64,000 nt of DNA from positions 62,001 through 126,000 of the forward strand of contig JAFECE010000009.1 of NCBI GenBank assembly GCA_018242295.1, written 5' to 3'. Made by a program: the position numbers and the translations under genes. The notes beneath the pieces are model-generated. The model was not told the DNA's origin. It searched no databases and was given only the letters and a program-made list of their open reading frames with translations. The DNA is from Pseudomonadota bacterium. Its GTDB lineage: Bacteria > Pseudomonadota > Alphaproteobacteria > Rhizobiales > Hyphomicrobiaceae. Positions 26,344 to 61,403 of this stretch are shown here, piece after piece. The first letter of the stretch is position 1. Every line of letters starts with the position of its first letter.

Positions 26344-26511
26344 CGTTCCGTAAAGCCGGTGAAAACCGTTCGCCGAAGGCGTTCGTCCGCGAGCCGCGAA
26401 AGCCGACTCACTCGGCTATTGTCAGGATCAATTATGAACAGGGCGTTTTTGGTTAACACTTGTCCGTGCGATACGTGCATCAGCAACGGTCCCGCGATAC
26501 CTATCAAGGTC

Positions 26512-26537
26512 GTCATCCCCGCCTACGCGGGGATGAC
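26512..26537. repeat. Short REP-like palindrome
   Basis: A hairpin of ATCCCCGC and GCGGGGAT, extended by outer GTC/GAC pairs, lies in the gap before a minus-strand gene end. The same core heads the elements at 43044 and 50348. Confidence 0.7.
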
Positions 26538-26556
26538 GGGGGGAGTGGGTCCGGCG

Positions 26557-31139: not shown

Positions 31140-31322
31140 TTCCTCTCCCGGTACGGGAGAGGATTCCGGTCGAGCCGGAGGCTCGCAGCTTCACTTTCCT
31201 CTCCCAGTATGGGAGAGGATGCCCGGAGGGCAGGTGAGGGACTTGCCGTCAGCCGGAGCGCCACCGTCGGCATCAAGCCCCTCATCCGGCCTTCGGCCAC
31301 CTTCTCCCGATGGGAGAAGGAA
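31140..31322. repeat. Intergenic palindromic block, family C
   Basis: Three hairpins follow one another: CCTCTCCCGGTACGGGAGAGG at 31142 (21 bases with its loop), a near-identical one at 31198-31218, and CCTTCTCCCGATGGGAGAAG at 31300. Between them lie GC-rich spacers also seen, rearranged, at 43113-43340. It fills the gap between sgaA and the ligase gene. Confidence 0.7.
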
Positions 31323-31361: not shown

Positions 31362-33182
31362 CTAAACGAGATCGGGGGGTGCCGCTGCAGTGGCACCGCT
31401 GTCCGCGAGCTTCAGTACTGACTCGAGACTATCGGCCTCCGCCGCGGGCTTGTCCCAGCGGATGCGATGAATGCGCGGAAATCGCATCGCGACACCGGAT
31501 TTGTGCCGCGTCGATTCCTGAACCGCATCGAACGCCACTTCAAAAACGAGTTCCGGCTCGACGGCTCGCACCGGCCCGAACGTCTCGGTCGTATGGCTTC
31601 TGATCCACTTGTCGATCAGCAACAGCTCTTCGTCGGTAAATCCCGAATACGCCTTGCCGACGGGCACGAGCTGGTGATCGCCGTTTTCGTCCGTGCGCCA
31701 GACGCCGAAGGTATAATCCGAATAGTACGACGAGCGCTTGCCGGAGCCGCGCTGGGCGTACATCAGCACGCAGTCGAGCGTCAGCGCCGCGCGTTTCCAC
31801 TTGAACCATTCGCCTTTGACGCGCCCCGCCTGATAAGGGCTTGCGCGCCGCTTCAGCATCAGCCCTTCGATGCCCTCCGCGCGCGCCGACGACCAGAGCG
31901 CGCCGAGTTCGTCGAACGATTTGAAGTCGACGAGGGGGGAAACGTCCGTCAGCCGCGGATGATGCTTCGCATGCCACATTTCGAGACGTTGGCGGCGCTC
32001 GCCGAATGAAAGCGCGCGAAGATCTTCCTGACCATCGAAGAGAAGATCGTAGAGCCGCACATGCGGCGGATATGCCGTCATCATCTTCGCCGTCACCGAC
32101 TTGCGATTGAGACGCTGCTGCAAGTCGTTGAATGGCGCGATGACGCCATCACGCATAATGAGCAACTCGCCGTCGACGACGCAGTCGTGGCCCTGGAACG
32201 CCGAGCGGATTTCGGGAAATGCGCCGGAGATGTCGTCGCCCTGCCGCGAGAACATCCGCACGTCGCCGCCGCGCGCCGCGACCTGCACGCGGATGCCGTC
32301 CCATTTCCATTCTGCCGCGAAGTCTTCTGGTGCGAGGCGCGACCAGTCTTCCTCTTCGATCGGATGCGCCAGCATGACGGGACGGAAAACCGGCTTCGCG
32401 CCAGGGTCCGGACGCTCCGCCTTGCCGTCGAGCCATTGGAAAAGTTCGAGGTAGGGCGGCGCGAGCGCATGCCAGATCTCTTCAATCTCGGAAACGTCCC
32501 GGCCGTAGCTCTCGGCGAGGGCCGTTCGCGCCAGACGTGCCGAAACGCCGACGCGCGGTGCGCCACCGAGCAGCTTCAAAAGCGCCCATCGGCCGGACGC
32601 GTCGAGCTGATCGAGGAGGTGCCCGAGGCGTTCCGTACGTTCCGCCGTCGTGCCGCTCGCCATCGCGTCGATGACGTCACCAAGCGAGAGTTCTGGCGGC
32701 TCGCCGGAGTTGTGCCCTATCTCACCCCACCCCCGACCCCTCCCCGTCAAGGGAAGGGGAAAAGTGGGCTGTCCCCCTCCCGCTTGCGGGGAGGGGATAG
32801 GGGTGGGGGTGAGCTCAAGGACAAGCTGTTTCGGCTTTTCGCCATCGTTGTCGCTTTTCTCACGCTGGCTTTCCGCCATCTCCTTTTCCAACGATGGAAC
32901 GACGGCGCGATCCTCCGGCCACAGCAGCGCCACCGTCTCGGCCGTATCGCCCACGTAATCGCGCGACAACCGGTAGAGCGTCGGATCGATGAAGCGGCAG
33001 ACGAGATCGGTCAGCATCCGCCGGAGCGGCAGCCGGATCGGCACGCCGTCGGTCAAAGCCGCAAGCGCCCAGCCGCGATCGGGATCCGGTGCTGTGCGGA
33101 AATAATGGCCGAGCAGCGCGATCTTGCGGTTGCGGCTCTGCGTGTAGACGAGACAATCGAGAAGACCGGCGAATGCGCGCAT
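31362..33182 (-). CDS. ATP-dependent DNA ligase (ligase-exonuclease DNA-damage module)
   Basis: The 606-residue protein has an N-terminal DNA-binding domain and the nucleotidyltransferase core with the adenylated Lys in AEWKWDGIRVQ, then DGELLIMRDG, EGLMLKRR and KGEWFKWKR. Together with the MBL exonuclease gene two bases upstream it matches the alphaproteobacterial ligase-associated DNA-damage (cisplatin) module. I chose the ATG at 33182; the 157-codon upstream extension overlaps the exonuclease gene out of frame. Residues about 123-154 (ELTPTPIPSPQAGGG...) are the translation of a 93-bp palindromic repeat and look like an insertion. The helicase and PdeM nuclease usual for this module are absent here. 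Confidence 0.9.
   Translation of the reverse strand: MRAFAGLLDCLVYTQSRNRKIALLGHYFRTAPDPDRGWALAALTDGVPIRLPLRRMLTDLVCRFIDPTLYRLSRDYVGDTAETVALLWPEDRAVVPSLEKEMAESQREKSDNDGEKPKQLVLELTPTPIPSPQAGGGQPTFPLPLTGRGRGWGEIGHNSGEPPELSLGDVIDAMASGTTAERTERLGHLLDQLDASGRWALLKLLGGAPRVGVSARLARTALAESYGRDVSEIEEIWHALAPPYLELFQWLDGKAERPDPGAKPVFRPVMLAHPIEEEDWSRLAPEDFAAEWKWDGIRVQVAARGGDVRMFSRQGDDISGAFPEIRSAFQGHDCVVDGELLIMRDGVIAPFNDLQQRLNRKSVTAKMMTAYPPHVRLYDLLFDGQEDLRALSFGERRQRLEMWHAKHHPRLTDVSPLVDFKSFDELGALWSSARAEGIEGLMLKRRASPYQAGRVKGEWFKWKRAALTLDCVLMYAQRGSGKRSSYYSDYTFGVWRTDENGDHQLVPVGKAYSGFTDEELLLIDKWIRSHTTETFGPVRAVEPELVFEVAFDAVQESTRHKSGVAMRFPRIHRIRWDKPAAEADSLESVLKLADSGATAAAPPDLV
32721..32813. repeat. Family C palindromic repeat inserted in the ligase coding sequence
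   Basis: The 93-bp element starts CTCACCCCACCCCCGACC and ends GGGGTGGGGGTGAG, with internal hairpins of GGGGAGGGG type. Similar sequence lies in the gap at 43609-43642. At exactly 31 codons it keeps the ligase reading frame open. Confidence 0.75.
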
Positions 33183-33184
33183 CG

Positions 33185-34216
33185 CTATTCGGCCTCCTCG
33201 CCGTATCCGACGAGCGCGAGCGCACGAGCCTTGCGGCCGAGCGAGCCGAGATAATGCACGAGCGCATCCTCGCGGCCATGCGTCACCCAGATTTCTTCGG
33301 CCTCCGTTTCGATGACCGTTTGAATGAGCTCCGGCCAATCGACATGGTCCGAGACGACGAGCGGCAGCTCGACGCCGAGTTGACGGGCTCGGCCGCGCAC
33401 GCGCATCCACCCGCTCGCGAACGCATTGACCGGATCGCCGAAGCGGCGCGACCAACGGTCGCCGAGCGCCGACGGCGGACACATGACGATGCCGCCGCGC
33501 ATGGACTTCGGATCCGCGTCCGCAACCGGCTGAAGCTGGCCGAGATCGATGCCGAGCTTCTGATAGAGTTCCGTCAACGCTACGACCGCGCCGTGCAGAT
33601 AGATCGGCTTGTCGTAACCAGCATCGCGAACGACGCGGATCATCCGCTGGCACTTGCCGAGATTGTAGGCGCCGATGAGATGCGTCCGGTCCGGCTCAGC
33701 CTTGAGGGAGGACAACAGTTTCTTCGCTTCGTGCTCCGCCTTCTCGTGACGAAAAACCGGGAGAGCAAATGTCGCTTCCGTAACGAACACGTCGCAGGTG
33801 ACGAGTTCGAACGGCGCGCAGGTCGGGTCGCTCGCGCGCTTGTAATCGCCGGAAATGACGGCGCGTCGCCCGGCCCACTCGATGACGACTTGCGCCGAGC
33901 CGAGGATATGTCCGGCCGGCACCAGGCGTACTGAGACGCCGTTGATGCTGATGGTTTCGCCAAGGGCCAAGGGTTGGAATGCGCCCGCGCAGTCCTCGCC
34001 GTAGCGCACTTTCATGATCTCGATGGTTTCAGCCGTCGCCAGCACCGCGCGATGACCAGAGCGCGCATGGTCGCTGTGCCCATGCGTTATCACGGCACGA
34101 TCGACGGCCCGGCCGGGGTCGATATAGAAATCGCCGGGCTCGCAATAGATGCCGGAACCGACCGGGTAAAGCCACGTATCGACGGCCGGGGCTGAGGCAA
34201 TTGGAGTCGGGGTCAT
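33185..34216 (-). CDS. Ligase-associated DNA exonuclease (MBL fold)
   Basis: The 343-residue protein is a metallo-beta-lactamase-fold nuclease of the beta-CASP/Artemis-like kind. It has the HGHSDHA metal motif near residue 45, the His in PAGHILGSAQVVIE and the Asp in ISGDYKR. It matches the exonuclease that accompanies the ATP-dependent ligase in alphaproteobacterial DNA-damage operons. Its stop codon is two bases from the ligase start, so the pair is co-translated. The likely role is DNA end processing before sealing. Confidence 0.92.
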   Translation of the reverse strand: MTPTPIASAPAVDTWLYPVGSGIYCEPGDFYIDPGRAVDRAVITHGHSDHARSGHRAVLATAETIEIMKVRYGEDCAGAFQPLALGETISINGVSVRLVPAGHILGSAQVVIEWAGRRAVISGDYKRASDPTCAPFELVTCDVFVTEATFALPVFRHEKAEHEAKKLLSSLKAEPDRTHLIGAYNLGKCQRMIRVVRDAGYDKPIYLHGAVVALTELYQKLGIDLGQLQPVADADPKSMRGGIVMCPPSALGDRWSRRFGDPVNAFASGWMRVRGRARQLGVELPLVVSDHVDWPELIQTVIETEAEEIWVTHGREDALVHYLGSLGRKARALALVGYGEEAE

Positions 34217-36485: not shown

Positions 36486-36509
36486 TCGCGAACACAATTG
36501 CACGGAATG

Positions 36510-36536
36510 TCATCCTCGGCCAGAAGCCGAGGATGA
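36510..36536. terminator. Hairpin between convergent genes (family A arms)
   Basis: A perfect 11-bp stem, TCATCCTCGGC with GCCGAGGATGA, and 5-base loop lies between the SRPBCC and catalase gene ends. The arms equal the outer arms of the family A repeats. Confidence 0.6.
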
Positions 36537-36551
36537 CGGATTTCCTTGCTA

Positions 36552-43112: not shown

Positions 43113-43340
43113 TCCCTCTCCTGCCCATCTCGCCGAAGGCGAGCCTCCGGCTCGACAGGCATCCTCTCCCGTGCCGGGAGAGGAAAGGAGCTTCCAATCT
43201 CGTTTAAGCTCGCTCACGGAATACGGGCTGTCTCGTTGAGTGCGACCCTAGTCTTGCAATGAAAGCGGCAACCCGCGTTTCCTTCTCCCGCCGGGAGAAG
43301 GTGGCCAAAGGCCGGATGAGGGGACTTGAGGTAGCCGGAA
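43113..43340. repeat. Intergenic palindromic block, family C
   Basis: Hairpins CCTCTCCCGTGCCGGGAGAG near 43163 and CCTTCTCCCGCCGGGAGAAG near 43281 are joined by spacers including GAGCCTCCGGCTCGACAGGC. The parts resemble those at 31140-31322, in another order and orientation. Confidence 0.65.
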
Positions 43341-43369: not shown

Positions 43370-43522
43370 CGGCGCTGCGCTTCGCTCCGGCCGGGATGAC
43401 AAGGGGGTGGAGAAGCGAGCATCCAAAGACCACCGTCATGCCGACGAAGGTCGGCACCCAGTCAGCGATCCACACGCGTTATGGTGATGTTTGCATGGAT
43501 CCCGGCCTTCGCCGGGATGACG
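43370..43522. repeat. Composite palindromic repeat, family B, inverted copy
   Basis: The 60-base leader and GTCATGCCGACGAAGGTCGG match 40640-40720 closely. The unit ends GGATCCCGGCCTTCGCCGGG and ATGACGG. Confidence 0.75.
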
Positions 43523-43534
43523 GGGATGGGGCAT

Positions 43535-43642
43535 CCCCTCTCCCCATTCCTTCAATGGGGAGAGGGCTAGGGTGAGGGGCGGCCGCTTGTTCGTTCGATG
43601 CGGCCCCTCACCCCGACCCTCTCCCCGCTTGCGGGGAGAGGG
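43535..43642. repeat. Nested palindrome, family C
   Basis: Two CCCTCTCCCC/GGGGAGAGGG hairpins flank a central inverted repeat of GTGAGGGGCGGCCGC against GCGGCCCCTCAC. It shares its end sequence with the element inside the ligase gene. Confidence 0.7.
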
Positions 43643-43650
43643 TCGAATTA

Positions 43651-50347: not shown

Positions 50348-50418
50348 GTCATCCCCGCGTAGGCGGGGATCGGTCCAACTTTCCGGCCTGGACAGATCCC
50401 GGCCTTCGCCGGGATGAC
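50348..50418. repeat. REP-like palindromic pair
   Basis: ATCCCCGCGTAGGCGGGGAT, then a 22-base spacer, then GATCCCGGCCTTCGCCGGG. The first half matches 43044-43072 and the second the arm of the family B copies. Confidence 0.7.
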
Positions 50419-61275: not shown

Positions 61276-61403
61276 GTCATCCCGGCGAAGGCCGGGATCC
61301 AGGCAACGATCAGTACATTCTCGCTTGCGGTCCGCTCAGGCCGAACGCCACCCATCACTTTTACTGAAGCCTGTCTGGGTGCCGACCTACGTCGGCATGA
61401 CGG
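61276..61403. repeat. Composite palindromic repeat, family B, forward copy
   Basis: It opens GTCATCCCGGCGAAGGCCGG and GATCCAGGCAACG and closes GTGCCGACCTACGTCGGCAT. Its order of parts is the mirror of 40699-40827. It fills much of the 357-base gap 61224-61580, which also holds the bfr terminator. Confidence 0.75.

Follow-up and report, generated by a model that had tools for sequence, protein, structure and literature searches.

How does a palindromic repeat of intergenic type come to be read as part of a DNA ligase, and why does it stay there? The question is raised by a Hyphomicrobium locus (assembly GCA_018242295.1), where the window, meaning the whole stretch of 64,000 nucleotides analyzed here, carries an ATP-dependent DNA ligase of the TIGR04120 family. 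Its gene starts with an ATG at position 33182 of the minus strand and is adjoined upstream, on the same strand, by the gene of a ligase-associated exonuclease (Table 1). A fold search with the ligase returned ATP-dependent ligases and nothing further. In an AlphaFold2 model built on a 24-row alignment (pTM 0.64), a linker predicted to be disordered separates the N-terminal domain from the DNA-binding/catalytic part, both of which are well folded. These two folded parts are under strong purifying selection, with dN/dS values of 0.05-0.10 against nine congeners. The initial annotation had placed a palindromic repeat, translated in frame, between these domains, and this is borne out: the edges of the insert fall on codon boundaries of the ligase, its 31 codons hold no stop, and it lies within the predicted disordered linker. 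Directly after it, every long-linker genome of the genus but G018 (14 of 15) has GHNSG or GDNSG. As a separate observation, GHN-like motifs (IGHNSGE, GHNNPPPP, AGHNRPP) recur in ligases of several families, immediately ahead of the DNA-binding part.

Table 1. Features of the ligase locus and the comparison repeat, in window coordinates
Feature	Position	Strand	Remarks
ATP-dependent DNA ligase, TIGR04120 cisplatin damage response ligase, 606 aa	31362..33182	-	NCBIfam 740 bits (cut-off 400)
Linker, predicted disordered, residues 93-162	32697..32906	-	AlphaFold2 pLDDT <50
IGHNSGE, conserved stretch directly after the insert	32700..32720	-	genus alignment
Palindromic insert, predicted translated, 31 codons, residues 124-154	32721..32813	-	B1, then reversed B2 (coding strand)
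B2 half-unit, loop GTCAA, reversed, head outward	32721..32759	-	B2- score 36.5
B1 half-unit, loop GCAAG, head outward	32772..32813	-	B1+ score 27.0
QLVLEL, fits the beta-clamp-binding consensus	32811..32828	-	last codon is the insert's first codon
Ligase-associated exonuclease (TIGR04122)	33185..34216	-	NCBIfam 474.6 bits (cut-off 325)
A-type REP pair, related stems, heads inward, CCCTCTCCCC stems	43535..43645	.	comparison copy of the initial annotation

The insert and its repeat families

The palindromy of the insert is above chance, as had been proposed: its 93 nt of DNA fold with z = -6.26, and the RNA of 136 nt around it folds at -92.6 kcal/mol with z = -7.88, none of 200 shuffles being as good in either case. 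What had been described as one 93-bp unit is a pair of two related half-unit types, here called B1 and B2. On the coding strand, B1 is followed by a 12-nt spacer and a reversed B2, so that the CACCCC heads point outward; the score threshold for a half-unit, 14, was reached by 1 of 360 shuffled linkers. B units measure about 30-40 nt, start with CACCCC and have CCCCTCCCC/GGGGAGGGG stems. The insert had also been likened to an intergenic repeat at 43535-43642. The repeat there, spanning 43535-43645, is related and of a different type: its heads point inward and its stems are CCCTCTCCCC, whereas in the ligase the heads point outward and the stems are CCCCTCCCC-like, and the two match over 18 nt only (E = 0.86 in the own-genome search).

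This own-genome search (G000; 4.05 Mb, 11 contigs), made with 131 nt around the insert, yielded 16 alignments at E <= 10 and 8 at E <= 0.01. The latter represent six sites, of which one is the ligase and five lie elsewhere; two of these five are matched on both strands, and all five are half-units, the best with 93% identity over 40 nt. The genome search that the initial annotation had called for thus recovers the repeat as half-units, with no second full copy of the 93-nt insert found. A strict B pattern gave 5 raw matches in this genome and an A pattern 20, with none for the reversed controls; across the genus, 15 of 22 genomes held 2 to 44 raw, overlapping strict B matches each, and the reversed control gave none in any. 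By the definition of repetitive extragenic palindromes (REPs) that we used (as given in PMC12306157), B units qualify: they are short palindromes with a common consensus, are repeated several to many times and lie mainly outside genes, the numbers in the own genome (5 raw B, 20 A) being low.

Outside the ligase, 58 loci (L178-L236 without L229) contained 21 close pairs, and all 16 that could be typed by their loops, under a rule set after some had been viewed, join B1 with B2. Hence B1 and B2 form a composite element, either head-in or head-out. Two inverted palindromes making one composite element are also what REPIN/RAYT systems have, as far as the consulted descriptions go; here, by contrast, no cognate RAYT was found. 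A search for Y1_Tnp (RAYT-type) genes, positive in 5 of 14 control genomes, matched 1 of 22 genus genomes (G010, itself without a ligase match) and neither the own genome nor any other of the 21 ligase-bearing ones, and RAYT was accordingly rejected as the mover of the units.

Two further kinds of palindrome were noticed in the window. A third type, recognized by eye from its TCCTCTCCC / CCTTCTCCC stems, lies at 31141-31320, shortly beyond the ligase gene's 3' end, and at 43162-43301, with similar stretches in loci L041 and L056. Palindromes resembling the CGTC type (GTCATCC... / ATCCCGGC...GCCGGGAT) lie at 26511-26538, 36509-36537, 43499-43518, 50396-50415 and 61279-61298.

The ligase linker across Hyphomicrobium

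The ligase is present in 21 of 22 genus genomes, with a linker of 12-15 aa in 6 of them and of 56-154 aa in 15, the own genome included. Short probes detected B or A units in 13 of the 15 long linkers, the exceptions being G004 and G009, whose genomes also have no strict B match; none were detected in the six short linkers. At a stricter threshold, the linkers of the 21 genomes contained 31 units in 4,968 nt, against 0 in 52,841 nt of flanks, the latter consisting of the folded parts of the ligase and about 1 kb upstream (the exonuclease gene in the window, and taken to be the same in the other genomes). A units accompany B units in the linkers of G016, G005, G018 and G019 and stand alone in that of G014; some linker units are nested, doubled or reversed. 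In G003, whose linker is the same as that of Hyphomicrobium facile, the basis of the genus name used here, QLVLDL is flanked by two B1-B2 pairs, one before and one after it. The comparison of orthologues within the genus, suggested at the outset, therefore supports the presence of repeat units in the linker, and shows the insert to be shared and reworked in many congeners. The insertion in the genus linker is old, and the site has been hit repeatedly. Short tandem expansions in the linkers of L018 (G005; LTPTAR) and L016 (G003; TSPLDA-like) have seemingly grown from repeat-derived coding sequence.

The reading frame is kept in 14 of the long-linker genomes. The exception, G020 (L012), is a one-contig genome in which the insert is present and the linker has four in-frame stops; the folded parts of its ligase look constrained (dN/dS 0.03 against G016). 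Either tolerance is imperfect or the assembly is in error; an assembly error, a recent break or a split gene would each account for the stops. A short-linker ligase, L024 (G021), has one in-frame stop in a fragmented assembly.

Against a simple copy-number account of how the linker was invaded stand G015 and G017, which have B matches in their genomes (11 and 2 raw, respectively), yet short, unit-free linkers. No clean empty site was found among the long linkers, the two unit-free ones (G009, G004) differing from the rest. The linker of G004, a genome branching close to the clade's base, is long and has QLTLDL with no recognizable unit, so that length may have come first.

The orientation of the pair is not constant. 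B1 precedes B2 in the linkers of G000, G006, G020, G003, G016, G005 and G002 and in the first pair of G018, B2 precedes B1 in G008 and G013, and the G019 linker has one reversed B1. Alignment scores agree with a reversal: the G008 element scores 66 forward and 136 reversed against that of G006, and the G013 element 39 forward and 87 reversed against that of G000. In the tree, G008 is the sister of G000 (support 100/96), with G006 next (94/92), while G013 belongs to another branch. Given these separate branches, the orientation changed at least twice if B1-B2 is ancestral, and both orientations are open in the ligase frame. A flip in place and a replacement by a reversed copy would each give this pattern.

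Units also occur inside other genes. In the own genome, an A-type REP pair lies within dnaE2 (L039 centre, C2:195151), and G003 has a B pair at another site of dnaE2 (L230). Among 59 non-ligase loci, taken from G001, G002, G003 and G005 and, among the matches listed, from G006 (with L228 and L229 overlapping), five were accepted as gene-internal within a named family, namely recF (G002, G003), valS (G001), and dnaE2 and thiC (G003). The other 54 were not accepted by our screen, which required a unit to be preceded by at least 60 codons and followed by at least 40 and so would miss copies near gene ends. Near pbpC, lspA and other genes (named by eye), stop-to-stop open reading frames also span repeats; these were rejected, since by eye they lie upstream of the real starts.

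Repeat-filled linkers in other families

To the genus set we added the best 80 of 591 relatives, all confirmed, giving 101 loci that were read with one profile-based parser, and compared 98 ligases after setting aside L090, L091 and L092, whose linkers are identical to those of genus loci. Within this set, linkers are 12-20 aa long in 54 ligases and at least 40 aa in 30. On a quick tree of the 98, linker length crossed 40 aa at least 8 times (7 at a limit of 60 aa, 9 at 29 aa), a count in which changes may include losses and the long class includes linkers without demonstrated repeats. When linkers of five other lineages were searched against their own genomes, raw alignments at E <= 0.01 numbered 96 in Bradyrhizobium jicamae, 86 in Methylobacterium haplocladii, 81 in Jiella endophytica, 140 in a Sphingopyxis metagenome-assembled genome (MAG) and 45 in Prosthecomicrobium, each figure coming from one search with 40 candidates per genome scored and counting the linker itself and both strands of the palindromes. 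Together with Hyphomicrobium, all six lineages tested thus have repeats of their own genome in the linker.

These repeats are not all of one kind. In most pairings, the Hyphomicrobium, Bradyrhizobium, Prosthecomicrobium, Sphingopyxis and Xanthobacteraceae MAG repeats resemble each other more than dinucleotide shuffles do, and the idea that the repeats are unrelated in every family was rejected, most of the C/G-rich linker repeats being alike. The Jiella linker resembles the own one at a level near chance (11 of 100 shuffles as good), and the Methylobacterium linker does no better than chance with the own one (22 of 100) or with the Jiella, Prosthecomicrobium and Xanthobacteraceae linkers. Linkers were compared whole, conserved ends included, which may explain the likeness between Methylobacterium and Bradyrhizobium. 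From the likeness of most pairings and the unlikeness of Methylobacterium, we count at least two repeat kinds, not six, and given that the repeats of most lineages are alike, a separate origin of each filling is not proven. By eye, the Methylobacterium insert has CGTC ends, and it may belong to the CGTC-tagged REPs.

Residues like those of the insert, carried by B-like repeats, also occur in Xanthobacteraceae MAG ligases (PTPDPSPQGGGE in L132, PIPNPSPQGGGE in L133). The initial annotation had held that the same residues in orthologues outside the genus would speak against an insertion; taken literally, that is what these ligases have. We read the likeness as recurrent insertion, to which an older shared insertion would be the alternative.

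Across the order, 179 of 297 genomes surveyed have TIGR04120. Of 16 long-match rows picked by eye among the survey matches listed, about 10 appeared repeat-like by eye, one of which duplicates the M. haplocladii linker included above; L241, L242, L250 and L251 did not, and L245 and L248 were ambiguous. Perfect hairpins are more frequent in linkers than in the rest of the open reading frame (4.46 against 0.52 per kb; 81 loci, three duplicates included). Hairpin length was rejected as a sole criterion, since shuffling a linker at constant composition often yields stems equally long: among the 38 linkers of at least 80 nt, only 8 had a stem length that none of 30 shuffles reached. For this reason we relied on own-genome matches.

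Tolerance, rival explanations and known systems

The reading that we prefer, and hold to be probable, is that these are REP insertions tolerated in a predicted disordered tether, similar in behavior to the Rickettsia palindromic elements (RPEs). Specifically, a B1-B2 pair would have inserted into the predicted disordered ligase linker at an early stage of one Hyphomicrobium clade and would have stayed because it can be read in frame either way and is placed in a flexible tether between folded domains, a placement that would leave the enzyme working. Later copies would have entered the same place, nested, doubled, decayed or become reversed, and in other alphaproteobacterial families repeats native to each host would have filled the tolerant linker. 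Within this account, we infer that the units persist through tolerance and not through benefit, and that most linker fillings are separate events. Neutral insertion into a tether accounts for most of the observations.

Five rivals deserve weighing. First, the tether may be adaptive: the hexapeptide that overlaps the start of the insert would bind the sliding clamp, and a longer tether would let the clamp-held ligase core reach nicks, so that insertions were kept. QLVLEL matches the published beta-clamp-binding consensus, Q-phi-x-[L/M]-x-[F/L] (as given in the section of PMC11139829 consulted). All 14 intact long linkers of the genus retain QLxLx[LF], in surroundings that can hardly be aligned, and within the 98 ligases, which include the best 80 of 591 relatives, it occurs in these 14 alone, always in the linker and always in one Hyphomicrobium clade. 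Further, G001, G002, G003, G016 and G018 have units flanking it on either side. The kept hexapeptide stands against a purely neutral linker, and by its match to the consensus it may bind the clamp. The motif is, however, absent from the other repeat-filled lineages, and linker length ranges from 56 to 154 aa within the clade, and we consider it rather unlikely that insertions were kept for this use. Second, repeats might be copied preferentially into repair genes, so that the linker is hit more often and not merely tolerated. Gene-internal copies in the ligase, in dnaE2 (two species, two sites), in recF (two species), in valS and in thiC fit this idea, as does the same leaning in PMC3733652, to judge from the part of that study consulted; but the numbers are small (5 of 59 non-ligase loci) and the leaning was noticed after the fact, which leaves such targeting unlikely.

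Third, a single C/G-rich repeat might have been inserted before the families split, lost many times and kept like the other copies by gene conversion. The own linker does align with that of a Xanthobacteraceae MAG at 30.0 (best of 100 shuffles, 14.5), and the Prosthecomicrobium linker with the same MAG at 33.0 (best shuffle, 15.0). Against this, ligases between the lineages are mostly short-linkered, as the 54 of 98 above indicate, and the Methylobacterium insert is unlike the own, Jiella and Prosthecomicrobium ones, making one ancient event improbable. Fourth, the hairpin could act in the mRNA, slowing ribosomes between domains and thereby aiding folding or tuning expression. The strong RNA fold would suit such a role, which is nevertheless very doubtful, as no second half can be recognized downstream of the motif in G001 and G018, units are missing from G004 and G009, and the ligase of unit-free G009 is still under purifying selection. 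Finally, a Pro/Gly-rich low-complexity linker that only looks palindromic through its G+C composition would account for shuffles often reaching similar hairpin lengths, but it is practically excluded by the near-identical units elsewhere in the same genomes, the empty reversed-pattern controls and the DNA fold.

Tolerated insertion has precedents. RPEs are palindromic repeats of about 100-150 bp with terminal inverted repeats (Ogata 2000, 2002, as cited in PMC10969869 and PMC2229807), found, according to passages of the same two papers, between genes and in frame within conserved genes. The units described here share this behavior, being palindromic, read in frame in ligase, dnaE2, recF, valS and thiC, and present in further copies elsewhere; the likeness is one of behavior only. 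They differ from what those passages describe in belonging to another lineage, in forming half-unit pairs, in having reversed copies and in filling one protein linker repeatedly. The resemblance to RPEs noted by the initial annotation therefore stands as regards an in-frame palindromic family in a conserved gene, whereas in-frame REPs outside Rickettsia had already been published (PMC3733652). In that paper, according to the portions consulted, Di Nocera et al. (2013) described REPs and REP dimers that are translated in frame with a bias toward repair genes, including dnaE2 and a DNA ligase of Opitutus terrae, and proposed neutral insertion in flexible linkers, so that in-frame REPs in repair genes, including a DNA ligase, have been known since 2013. 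Both sets share this setting. Judging by the same portions, their REP families carry GTAG or CGTC tags and their inserts lie mostly at different sites, recB of two Xanthomonas being the exception, whereas the B units, which start with CACCCC, have neither tag by eye and here one linker is hit across families. Alphaproteobacteria have other palindromic repeats, such as Br-REP1 and Br-REP2 of Bradyrhizobium, the former with about 200 intergenic copies (from the excerpt of PMC5082802 consulted); the Br-REP1 consensus printed there differs by eye from the units in the Bradyrhizobium ligase linker.

What appears to be new, as far as literature searches show, is the recurrence across families of host-specific repeats at one ligase linker, together with reversed copies and a conserved clamp-type peptide. 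Searches that covered a minority of subscription papers and no supplements found no literature naming the ligase linker as a repeat site. A bolder proposal, which we put forward as speculative and rather unlikely, is that throughout Alphaproteobacteria the linker serves as a favored landing site and that palindromic repeats, of two kinds or more, have repeatedly been domesticated there as a coding tether, the Hyphomicrobium tether presenting a clamp peptide and its insert flipping in frame to give two alternative linker peptides.

Beyond this single gene, the linker amounts to a replicated natural experiment, in that one gene and one linker have been filled in six lineages, with repeats of the lineage's own genome confirmed there. 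Beyond Rickettsia, free-living bacteria now allow a test of whether insertions of this kind are tolerated, targeted or of use, and a possible clamp contact is indicated, from the motif, for a little-studied repair ligase. The linker is thus a natural test case for junk DNA turning into protein.
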